A program made the position numbers and the translations under genes. DNA of 64,000 nt, taken from NCBI GenBank assembly GCA_023144005.1, contig JAGLGN010000032.1, positions 5,606 through 69,605 of the forward strand, read 5' to 3'. The notes beneath the pieces are model-generated. The model was not told the DNA's origin. It saw only the letters and a list, made by a program, of their open reading frames with translations, and searched no databases. Source of the DNA: a bacterium (lineage in GTDB: Bacteria > AUK180). Below are positions 44,384 to 49,119 of this stretch, piece by piece; position 1 is the first letter of the stretch; each line of letters begins with the position of its first letter.

Positions 44384-44527
44384 TTATTCCTCCTTTTTCA
44401 TCAGCTCAAAAAGCAATGAATTTTCTTCGTTATATCCGTTCACGCCAAGATATACTGCTGAATATCCCTCTCGGGAATATGCATCTATCTCGGTGTACAC
44501 TAATGTATTGTTCAATGTACGGTTCAA
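44384..44527 (-). CDS. Putative 47-residue protein between HD-GYP and SPFH genes
   Basis: A small frame starting with TTG that overlaps the HD-GYP stop as TTGA and has GGAGGAG just upstream. It ends one base before the SPFH ATG. The translated peptide contains VYTEIDAYSREGYSAVYLGV and ends ELMKKEE. It fills the gap exactly, as expected for a coupled operon gene, but there is no recognisable family. A shorter start at an internal GTG is possible. Confidence 0.5.
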   Translation of the reverse strand: MNRTLNNTLVYTEIDAYSREGYSAVYLGVNGYNEENSLLFELMKKEE

Positions 44528-46347
44528 TTCTCCTCCATTTTCAACATATTCAAGAGCTTCAGCTGCAAATTGGATTTTGCCGTCTCGCCATGTTCCGAAT
44601 ATATCTCCGCAAGCAAAGCTCTGAGTTCTATTTCCAAATACACAAAACGGTCCTGTTGTGAAATTGCCGCTGCATCCTCAACAAATCTGATCGCAGTATG
44701 AAGGTCTTTTTTCCTGTAAAGCTGGCCCATAAGGTGATAGTATTCTATCAGGCATCGTGGATCTTTCAGAGTTTTTGGATCCACCTGATCTAATTTTTTC
44801 TCCATCTTCTCCATATTGCCTTCCTGAAGGTCGATCGTAGCAAGCGCCAATATGATCTCAGAGGTAGGATCAAACTGTTTCTTAAGATCAGAAATAATAG
44901 GTCTTGCCTTTCTCAATTTTCCCCAACGGATAAAATTCTTCGCCCTTTCCAGATTTACCAGATATATCCCTCTTTTTATCTCTAAATTGCGAGATGTTCT
45001 CAAATTCATAAGGAAGTTCTGCTCGGCAGCCTCATAGCGCCCCATCACGCTGAGAAGTTTTCCTTTGCCGCCGTGAGATATGGACAAGCCATAGGAATCG
45101 TCCAGATCATGTTTCAGGTCAAGAGAAAGATCATAATATTTCAAGGCCTTATTAAAACCGCCAAGATCGAATTGTATCCTGGCTTGAACATCATACATCT
45201 TGGCTAAGTTCAGAGAGATCTCCTCATAGAGCTGGTAATTCTCATCCAGAAGCTCAAAGTACTTTAAGCCGATGGAGTAATTCTTATCATGCACCAGCAT
45301 CAATGTGCCTGACAATTCCTTGTATATCTCTTCACAATAGGCCATCTCAACCAATGCCGCCTCTTTCTTATTCAGCTTCCAATAGCTCATCGCCAGATGC
45401 CTCAATGCGCGGGCGTGCTCCAGAGGAGATATATGCCGATTCGACAGGATCATCTCCGAAATATTGATCACCTCATCAAATTCCTTCTTATAATAGTGGT
45501 AGAGCGCGTTTTCATTCAAGAATTTATCATTGATGGCGATCCCGTACTCGCTGGATAACTGCTCCAGTTTCCGTATCGTCAAAAGGGACTGGTCTAATTG
45601 CTTCATCTTATTGTGGATCTCGAGCATTTTCAATTCAATTGAATACTTTCTTTCGGGGTCTTTAAATTTTTTCTCCGCTCTTTTAAATAGCTTAACCGCC
45701 TCTCCCCAGGCATTGGTCTCGAATCCCCTGCTGAAATTCATCCCTTTTAAGAACTCTATTTCACCTTCTTTAAATAGAATTACGAAGGCATCAACAAGCT
45801 TAGGGTCGTACAATGTGCCTTTATGGGCGATCAGCTCTCTAACGGCATCTGAATCGCGCTTTCTGCGGCGATAGACCCTATTTGTGGTCATCGCGTCATA
45901 GGAATCACAAATGCCGATTATTCTCGATACTAAGGGAATATTTTCTCCGGTCAGACCGCCCGGATAACCGCTGCCGTCCCATCTCTCATGATGATGCTTG
46001 ACAATGATATTGACTTCCTGTAGAAGGGGGTGTTTTGAAAGGATGTGCTGCGCATAGATAACATGTTTTTCCATTTCTAATGTCTCTTCTCTGCTTAAAA
46101 TCCCTTTTTTCTTCAATACATGCTCCGAGATCTTTGCCTTACCGACATCGTGAAGCTGAGAAGCAAGATATACGGTGGATATTTCATTTTTAGAAAGGCC
46201 GATGTACTCGGCTACTTTAACCGCATAGAGTCTTACGCGGTCTGAATGTCCGGAGGTATATTTATCTTTCGCGTCAATGGATTCTGTCAGATATTTGACC
46301 GCTAGAACGAAAAGGTCCTGAACATTGAAGTTTAAAATATTCCCCAT
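44524..46347 (-). CDS. HD-GYP phosphodiesterase with C-terminal TPR domain
   Basis: A 607-residue protein. Residues about 1-205 are an HD-GYP domain with H34 (SGHSDR), H66-D67 (LHDVGK), HHHERWDGSGYPGGL (118-132) and DSYDAMT, all metal and GYP residues intact. It should hydrolyse cyclic di-GMP. The remaining 400 residues are helical TPR-like repeats, probably a protein-binding platform. The ATG lies six bases after TATAAT of a strong promoter, so the mRNA is predicted to be leaderless. It is the degrading counterpart of the cyclase at 37392. Confidence 0.92.
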   Translation of the reverse strand: MGNILNFNVQDLFVLAVKYLTESIDAKDKYTSGHSDRVRLYAVKVAEYIGLSKNEISTVYLASQLHDVGKAKISEHVLKKKGILSREETLEMEKHVIYAQHILSKHPLLQEVNIIVKHHHERWDGSGYPGGLTGENIPLVSRIIGICDSYDAMTTNRVYRRRKRDSDAVRELIAHKGTLYDPKLVDAFVILFKEGEIEFLKGMNFSRGFETNAWGEAVKLFKRAEKKFKDPERKYSIELKMLEIHNKMKQLDQSLLTIRKLEQLSSEYGIAINDKFLNENALYHYYKKEFDEVINISEMILSNRHISPLEHARALRHLAMSYWKLNKKEAALVEMAYCEEIYKELSGTLMLVHDKNYSIGLKYFELLDENYQLYEEISLNLAKMYDVQARIQFDLGGFNKALKYYDLSLDLKHDLDDSYGLSISHGGKGKLLSVMGRYEAAEQNFLMNLRTSRNLEIKRGIYLVNLERAKNFIRWGKLRKARPIISDLKKQFDPTSEIILALATIDLQEGNMEKMEKKLDQVDPKTLKDPRCLIEYYHLMGQLYRKKDLHTAIRFVEDAAAISQQDRFVYLEIELRALLAEIYSEHGETAKSNLQLKLLNMLKMEEN

Positions 46348-46390: not shown

Positions 46391-46466
<76 letters not shown>

Positions 46467-46475
46467 ATCCCATTT

Positions 46476-46991
46476 TTAGTATTCTATTATAGTGAATATC
46501 TCCAGATTGTCAAGTTTTTTCCGGGCTTCCAGGAATTTTAATTCCACTAAGAACAAAGCCCCGACCACACTTGCACCATTTTTTTCGATCATTTTCTTCA
46601 CAGCACCTACGGTTCCGCCTGTAGCAAGAAGATCGTCTATGATCAAGAATCGATCACCTTTATTTATGGCATCTTTGTGCATCTCCAATGTGTCTTCCCC
46701 GTATTCAAGGGAATAACTCTCAGAAATGGTCTCAGCGGGGAGCTTCCCTTTCTTTCTCACGGGAATAAAGGGTTTGTCCAAAAGATACGACAGTGCGCCG
46801 CCAAAGATAAATCCCCTGGATTCGATCGAAGCCAATTTATCATACTCAACATTTGCCAGAACATCTTTCATGGCATCAATTGCCTTTTTAAAACCCGCAG
46901 GATCCTTCAGCAGAGTAGTGATATCTTTGAATACTATACCCTTTTTCGGGAAATCCGGAACATCTCTGATCAAAGATGATAATTCTTCCAT
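46476..46991 (-). CDS. apt: Alternative internal product: stand-alone adenine phosphoribosyltransferase
   Basis: An in-frame internal start inside the sigma-APRT frame. The ATG at 46991 with AAGGAG six bases upstream would give a 171-residue APRT of normal length, starting and ending as the family does. APRT salvages adenine to AMP using PRPP. Whether this, the fusion, or both are made cannot be decided from sequence. Confidence 0.7.
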   Translation of the reverse strand: MEELSSLIRDVPDFPKKGIVFKDITTLLKDPAGFKKAIDAMKDVLANVEYDKLASIESRGFIFGGALSYLLDKPFIPVRKKGKLPAETISESYSLEYGEDTLEMHKDAINKGDRFLIIDDLLATGGTVGAVKKMIEKNGASVVGALFLVELKFLEARKKLDNLEIFTIIEY

Positions 46992-47819
46992 ATGCCTCTC
47001 CTTTTCAATATTTAAATTGCTTTGTATTATTCCTACACCCTTATTGATGATCTGTCTAACCCTTTCTTTCGAAAGGCTCATAATGGTCCCAACCTCATCA
47101 AGAGTTCGAAAGGCATGGCCATCCAGCCCAAAACGCAATGAAATGGCCTGCTTAACTTTCGGTTTTAAGGATGAGATCATCTTCGACACATATTCACTCT
47201 TATCCTTTCTGTCCTCTTCTTCGTAAAATGAGGCGCTGTCGCGGGAAAGCGTGAGATAATTAATGAAATCCTCGCTATCATTATCTATCTTGAATGACAT
47301 CGAATATTCATTTTGAACAATATTTAATTGATGCAGAAACTTCTCTTCTTCCATGTCAAATTGCTTTGCGATCTCTTTCGTTGTTGGTTTTCTCTCATGC
47401 TCGTGAAAGAACTCGTCGATATAATTCATAACTTTCACGCGAAAATCAAGAATATATATCGGGATCTTAACTATTCGCGCGTTCTTATCGATGAAATTGA
47501 TTATATACGCCTTGATCCAAAAATATGCGTATGTAGAAAATTTGAAATGCTTCTCAGGTTTAAAATGATCGATGGCTTTGAGCATGCCGGAAACTCCTTC
47601 AGAAAGGATATCCAATTTACTGATCCCCCGCAATCTGAAGTACTTCTTTGCGACCATTATTACAAGTCGTTGATTATGAAGGATGATTTTTTCTCTAAGA
47701 GCATGATCACCTGTCTTCTTGTACTCTACAAAATACTCATACTCTTCTTCGGAAGTGAACGGTTTGTAATCCTTCAATTCACGAAAATATATTTTTAAGA
47801 GCTTATCTTCAATATCCAT
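46476..47819 (-). CDS. Sigma-70 family factor fused in frame to adenine phosphoribosyltransferase
   Basis: One open frame of 447 residues. Residues 1-276 are a complete sigma-70 factor without region 1.1: region 2 (LVIMVAKKYF, FSTYAYFWIKAYI), region 3 (RKPTTKEIAKQF) and region 4 (RTLDEVGTIMSLSKERVRQI). Residues 277-447 are a full-length APRT (MEELSSLIRDVPDFPKKGI, PRPP loop FLIIDDLLATGGT). No stop codon separates them. Directly before the internal ATG (46991) is AAGGAG, which in the sigma frame encodes Glu-Lys-Glu-Arg-His. Free APRT could therefore also be made by internal initiation. An NlpD-like gene lies just upstream, as beside rpoS in Proteobacteria. Confidence 0.9.
   Translation of the reverse strand: MDIEDKLLKIYFRELKDYKPFTSEEEYEYFVEYKKTGDHALREKIILHNQRLVIMVAKKYFRLRGISKLDILSEGVSGMLKAIDHFKPEKHFKFSTYAYFWIKAYIINFIDKNARIVKIPIYILDFRVKVMNYIDEFFHEHERKPTTKEIAKQFDMEEEKFLHQLNIVQNEYSMSFKIDNDSEDFINYLTLSRDSASFYEEEDRKDKSEYVSKMISSLKPKVKQAISLRFGLDGHAFRTLDEVGTIMSLSKERVRQIINKGVGIIQSNLNIEKERHMEELSSLIRDVPDFPKKGIVFKDITTLLKDPAGFKKAIDAMKDVLANVEYDKLASIESRGFIFGGALSYLLDKPFIPVRKKGKLPAETISESYSLEYGEDTLEMHKDAINKGDRFLIIDDLLATGGTVGAVKKMIEKNGASVVGALFLVELKFLEARKKLDNLEIFTIIEY
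46486..46513 (-). promoter_or_regulatory. Promoter of tRNA-Arg inside the apt coding end
   Basis: Minus strand: -35 TTGACA (46513-46508), 16-base spacer, -10 TATAAT (46491-46486). Both elements lie in the last codons of apt. Predicted start near 46479, about 13 bases before the tRNA. Confidence 0.75.
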
Positions 47820-49043: not shown

Positions 49044-49119
49044 TGGTCGGGGTGACTGGATTCGAACCAGCGACCTCTCGGCCCCGAACCGAGCGCGCTA
49101 CCAACTGCGCTACACCCCG
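49044..49119 (-). tRNA. tRNA-Pro (anticodon CGG)
   Basis: A 76-base tRNA including encoded CCA. The acceptor stem is CGGGGTG/CACCCCG. The anticodon arm is CTCGG-TTCGGGG-CCGAG, anticodon CGG. The T loop is TTCGAAT. Its first ten bases overlap the end of the preceding coding region, whose TAG stop is tRNA positions 8-10. Confidence 0.97.

Follow-up and report, generated by a model that had tools for sequence, protein, structure and literature searches.

A single bacterial gene joins an RpoS-like sigma-70 factor in frame to a complete adenine phosphoribosyltransferase (APRT). With a probability of roughly 80%, this is a true gene fusion conserved in its lineage and equipped with two translation starts, which arose when the sigma gene of an ancestral operon lost its stop codon. 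In the window (the whole stretch of DNA analysed, 64,000 nucleotides), translation of positions 46476-47819 on the reverse strand gives 447 amino acids with no internal stop. An earlier note on this DNA had claimed a sigma factor in frame with a complete APRT, and both the unbroken frame and the Pfam and TIGR01090 matches, which lie above their cut-offs, bear this out. The features of the locus are as follows.

46476..47819 (-): sigma-70/APRT fusion gene, 447 codons plus stop; fusion conserved in loci L004, L005 and L006
47826..48566 (-): LysM-M23 (NlpD-like) gene, directly upstream, its stop 6 nt ahead of the sigma ATG; synteny in G002-G006
Directly upstream of sigma region 2 (-): region 1.2-like segment, about aa 8-36; RpoS alignment starting at aa 9
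47475..47684 (-): sigma region 2, aa 46-115 (Pfam Sigma70_r2)
47253..47435 (-): sigma region 3, aa 129-189 (Pfam Sigma70_r3)
47037..47177 (-): sigma region 4, aa 215-261 (Pfam Sigma70_r4)
46992..47027 (-): linker, aa 265-276, a portion of a predicted single helix (aa 251-282)
46998..47003 (-): AAGGAG ribosome-binding site, codons Lys273-Glu274; identical in all four fusions
46989..46991 (-): internal APRT ATG, Met277, 6 nt after AAGGAG
46479..46991 (-): APRT domain and predicted free APRT, 171 aa; above the TIGR01090 cut-off and matching APRT structures such as 4lza
46611..46649 (-): PRPP-binding motif FLIIDDLLATGGT, aa 391-403, from sequence and aligned to solved APRTs
46391..46466 (-): tRNA-Arg(CCT), 9 nt past the fusion stop; conserved neighbour
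44524-46347 (same strand): HD-GYP-type (HD_5) phosphodiesterase-like domain, then TPR-like repeats, just downstream of tRNA-Arg

Domains and predicted structure

Curated Pfam cut-offs are exceeded by the three sigma models (PF04542, PF04539 and PF04545 for regions 2, 3 and 4) and by Pribosyltran (aa 301-426). The APRT equivalog TIGR01090 is matched over its entire length (aa 280-447 against model positions 1-169 of 169), with 214.6 bits against a cut-off of 185.85. The nearest solved structures are E. coli RpoS for the sigma part and the APRT 4lza for the APRT part, and region 1.2 is considered present because the RpoS alignment begins at residue 9. The RpoS equivalogs TIGR02394 and NF004207 give 157 bits, far under their cut-offs of 378.7 and 394, and the sigma part is therefore named RpoS-like, not RpoS. 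Judged from its sequence, it is an RpoS-like group-2 sigma-70 factor with regions 1.2 to 4, and it retains every region required for core and promoter binding, the binding itself being predicted. Alignment with 4lza and 4m0k showed that the PRPP-binding and flexible-loop motifs are intact; the APRT part, with its active-site motifs kept, is apparently an intact enzyme. We infer that sigma and APRT activities both persist in the fusion.

Two AlphaFold runs were made, one on a faulty alignment (sigma rows misplaced on APRT) and one on a sound alignment. Both models contain a single helix (residues 251-282) in which the recognition helix of sigma region 4 and the first helix of APRT merge. In the sound run the pLDDT is 73-78 over residues 261-290 and the pTM is 0.48, with the linker nearly unaligned (two rows), and a rigid helical junction between sigma region 4 and APRT is thus predicted with moderate confidence. 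A structure search with the AlphaFold model returned APRTs at the top, followed by sigma-S chains.

Two starts and two predicted products

The earlier note had observed that the APRT ATG and a ribosome site persist at the junction, and this turns out to be true of all four fusions: AAGGAG-N6-ATG stands at the junction in every fusion, with N6 varying (AGGCAT, TTGATA, TGGCTC). Within residues 266-277 of the linker, only K273, E274 and M277 are invariant, and these are the positions whose codons form the ribosome site and the start. From the Lys and Glu codon usage of each gene itself, the chance that all three independent lineages would carry AAG GAG is about 0.005 (0.21 x 0.13 x 0.18), which suggests that the DNA signal is under selection, and hence probably the making of free APRT. 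By calculation, ribosome-site pairing is much stronger for the internal start (-7.8 to -9.3 kcal/mol) than for the sigma start (-2.6 to -4.6 kcal/mol). Other internal start codons equal or beat the junction ATG in this energy in G004, and some come near it elsewhere, so that pairing energy alone is not unique to the junction ATG.

The predicted products are a sigma-APRT protein of 52 kDa and a free APRT of 19 kDa (calculated masses 52.0 and 19.0 kDa, about the 50 and 19 kDa given previously). As the frame is read, a sigma chain lacking APRT cannot be a normal translation product, because there is no stop between the domains. Ribosomes starting at the sigma ATG would run on into APRT, and each sigma molecule would bear an APRT, whereas those starting at the internal ATG would yield the free enzyme. 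Free APRT is probably the more abundant product, given that the ribosome site of the sigma start is weak and that, in the window's genus, the LysM-M23 stop lies 6 nt ahead of that start (translational coupling). Both products presumably accumulate. As APRTs form dimers, the partner of sigma-APRT would probably be free APRT in most cases, held to sigma region 4 by the predicted continuous helix. The earlier note had offered a lost stop codon or a dual product as alternatives; the either/or falls away, and both together are favoured, since sigma and apt are still two genes in the sister family and the fusions have kept the internal start. It is improbable that proteolysis parts sigma from APRT once the fusion is made: exposed linkers can be cut as a general point, but this one is unconserved save for its ribosome-site codons, and no conserved cleavage site is visible.

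The window genome encodes one RpoD, three sigma factors of ECF size and the fusion, with no other RpoS-like sigma, and its only apt copy is that within the fusion. The fusion is therefore probably the sole RpoS-like sigma of the organism and, together with its internal product, the sole source of APRT.

Conservation and origin of the fusion

The phylum, an uncultured one, was sampled by seven genomes, two of which (G005 and G006) belong to a sister family. The fusion is unbroken in four of the four assembled loci of the window's family (the window genome G000, and G001, G003 and G004). Its identity to the window fusion is 99% in G001, the second genome of the same genus, and 54% and 55% over all 447 residues in G003 and G004, which represent two further genera; the comparison thus covers only three independent fusion lineages. 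No linker indels exist among the family fusions. G000 and G001 differ at 34 nucleotides of the gene, 31 of these differences being synonymous and the three replacements all falling in sigma; at the larger distances identity is 70-72% for APRT and 44-47% for sigma. The contig that carries the fifth family locus (G002) stops within region 4, and a search of that genome's contigs found no apt elsewhere, which is consistent with the remainder of the locus being unassembled. The earlier note had proposed a search for the fusion in related genomes and had named, as evidence against it, two separate genes in all relatives or a sequencing error at the junction. In fact the gene is fused in G001, G003 and G004, and separate genes are confined to the sister family and more distant lineages. 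Although the window genome (38 contigs, 96% complete) and its relatives are all assemblies in multiple contigs, apparently from metagenomes, an assembly or sequencing error is ruled out for practical purposes, because the same in-frame junction recurs, with different linker codons, in assemblies at 54-55% identity. A recoded stop is excluded as well, the frame containing no stop of any kind.

In the sister family, sigma and apt are separate and adjacent; the sigma stop is TGA, and the apt ATG follows 4 or 6 nt on. In G006, the apt ribosome site AAAGGA overlaps the sigma stop, and such an overlap, minus the stop, would give the arrangement seen in the window. Outside the phylum, many unrelated genomes also have sigma followed by apt; the distance from stop to start is mostly 0-45 nt, and one or more stops are always present. 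Where a match spans sigma and APRT in a single frame, it is free of stops only at the loci of the window's family. No further sigma-APRT fusion was found in about 740 distinct genomes searched, or among the best viral-contig matches; in these searches a fusion would appear as one long stop-free match, detectable only if it scored above the cut-off. One candidate, L034 (WOR-3; APRT 63% identical), was rejected, the gene upstream not being a sigma factor. Because the sister family and other phyla keep separate adjacent genes, the sigma-apt pair is, on comparative sequence evidence, a long-standing operon that fused only once, later and within this family, when the sigma stop was lost. The ancestral operon would have consisted of an nlpD-like gene, an RpoS-like sigma gene and apt, and the stop would have been lost in the ancestor of the family.

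Separate RpoS-like sigma and apt neighbours are present in several distant phyla (L008, L051-L056, L233-L242, L248 and L249). Adjacent pairs often share a frame with one stop between them, the same-frame excess coming partly from the match-finding method. At L240 (G689) the sigma stop TAA abuts the apt ATG in the same frame, with a gap of 0, so that an independent fusion is one codon change away. No explanation for the pairing across phyla was found in the literature searched.

The gene order is conserved throughout the family (small hypothetical protein, small multidrug-export protein, tRNA-Pro, SLOG-family protein, LysM-M23, sigma, apt, tRNA-Arg), and the same neighbourhood is partly retained in the sister family. 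The NlpD-like LysM-M23 gene upstream of sigma recalls the classical nlpD-rpoS arrangement. tRNA-Pro(CGG), at window positions 49044-49119, sits between two protein genes of the cluster, and the position of tRNA-Arg is retained even in the sister family (tRNA loci checked: L243, L244 and L246); this suggests that the tRNAs are embedded in a protein operon.

Role of the tether and comparison with known systems

What the tether does for sigma is a separate matter, on which we give even odds to a passive role, a clearly smaller share to gating by APRT ligands or dimer state, and a smaller one again to something else. Under a passive fusion, the stop would have been lost by drift when APRT was already made from its internal start, and the tether would be neutral to sigma. 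The sigma end and apt start already lie close together in the outgroups, the sister family having a gap of 4-6 nt and L240 one of 0 nt, and the linker residues are variable outside the ribosome site. Neutral simulation near the observed divergence gave a chance of about 0.11-0.22 that the linker would stay stop-free in three lineages, so that selection for the fused state is not significant from the open linker alone. Against passivity stands the retention of the fusion in all assembled family loci, at about 55% identity and with no indel, though point mutations could have restored a stop.

A possible but less likely alternative is that the APRT domain acts as a sensor of PRPP, adenine/AMP or ppGpp and alters the exposure of sigma region 4 or the dimer state, in which case purine or stringent status would set the choice of promoters. 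Such a connection, already suggested in the earlier note, is plausible by analogy. In the Bacillus PurR protein, a PRT fold on a transcription factor serves as a sensor, reading PRPP versus ppGpp to control DNA binding (PMC8789054), and in ECF41 the domain that follows region 4 can control the sigma factor to which it is fused (PMC3426412). The predicted rigid helical junction and the retained PRPP motif would also suit gating. However, every other lineage seen manages with separate genes, and a complete catalytic motif suits an enzyme as well as a sensor. The fullest form of this proposal, a stress-type sigma with its own sensor, in which fused and free APRT together would read PRPP, adenine or ppGpp and set the amount of sigma available to RNA polymerase, we regard as rather doubtful.

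Neither of these known systems has the composition of the present gene. PurR likewise combines a transcription protein with a type-I PRT fold (PMC8789054), but it is a repressor whose PRT domain lacks enzymatic activity, whereas the window protein is a sigma factor carrying, by sequence, an apparently intact enzyme. The ECF41-like sigmas share an extra folded domain after region 4 (PMC3426412), which the frame, the Pfam matches and the AlphaFold model all place in the same chain here. They are small, without region 3, and have another type of extension, in contrast to the group-2 sigma of the window, in which Pfam detects region 3 and not only the regions 2 and 4 of the ECF type, and which is followed by a complete salvage enzyme with a second, internal start. 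RpoS-type group-2 sigma-70 factors have regions 1.2 to 4 in common with the window protein, which differs in lying far below the RpoS equivalog cut-offs and in its fusion to APRT. The window APRT, like apt of other organisms, is full length and above the TIGR01090 cut-off, but it is also translated as the C-terminal domain of sigma. No description of a sigma-APRT fusion was found in the open-access full-text literature, in agreement, to that extent, with the earlier note, which knew of none. Both halves are of known kinds; what appears to be new is that a single gene with two starts unites them.

Promoter selection is physically joined to a purine-salvage enzyme in one conserved gene of this family. 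The recurrence of the sigma-apt pair in distant phyla hints at an older functional link between RpoS-like sigmas and adenine salvage, and the fusion offers a ready system for asking whether the ligands of an enzyme gate a sigma factor.
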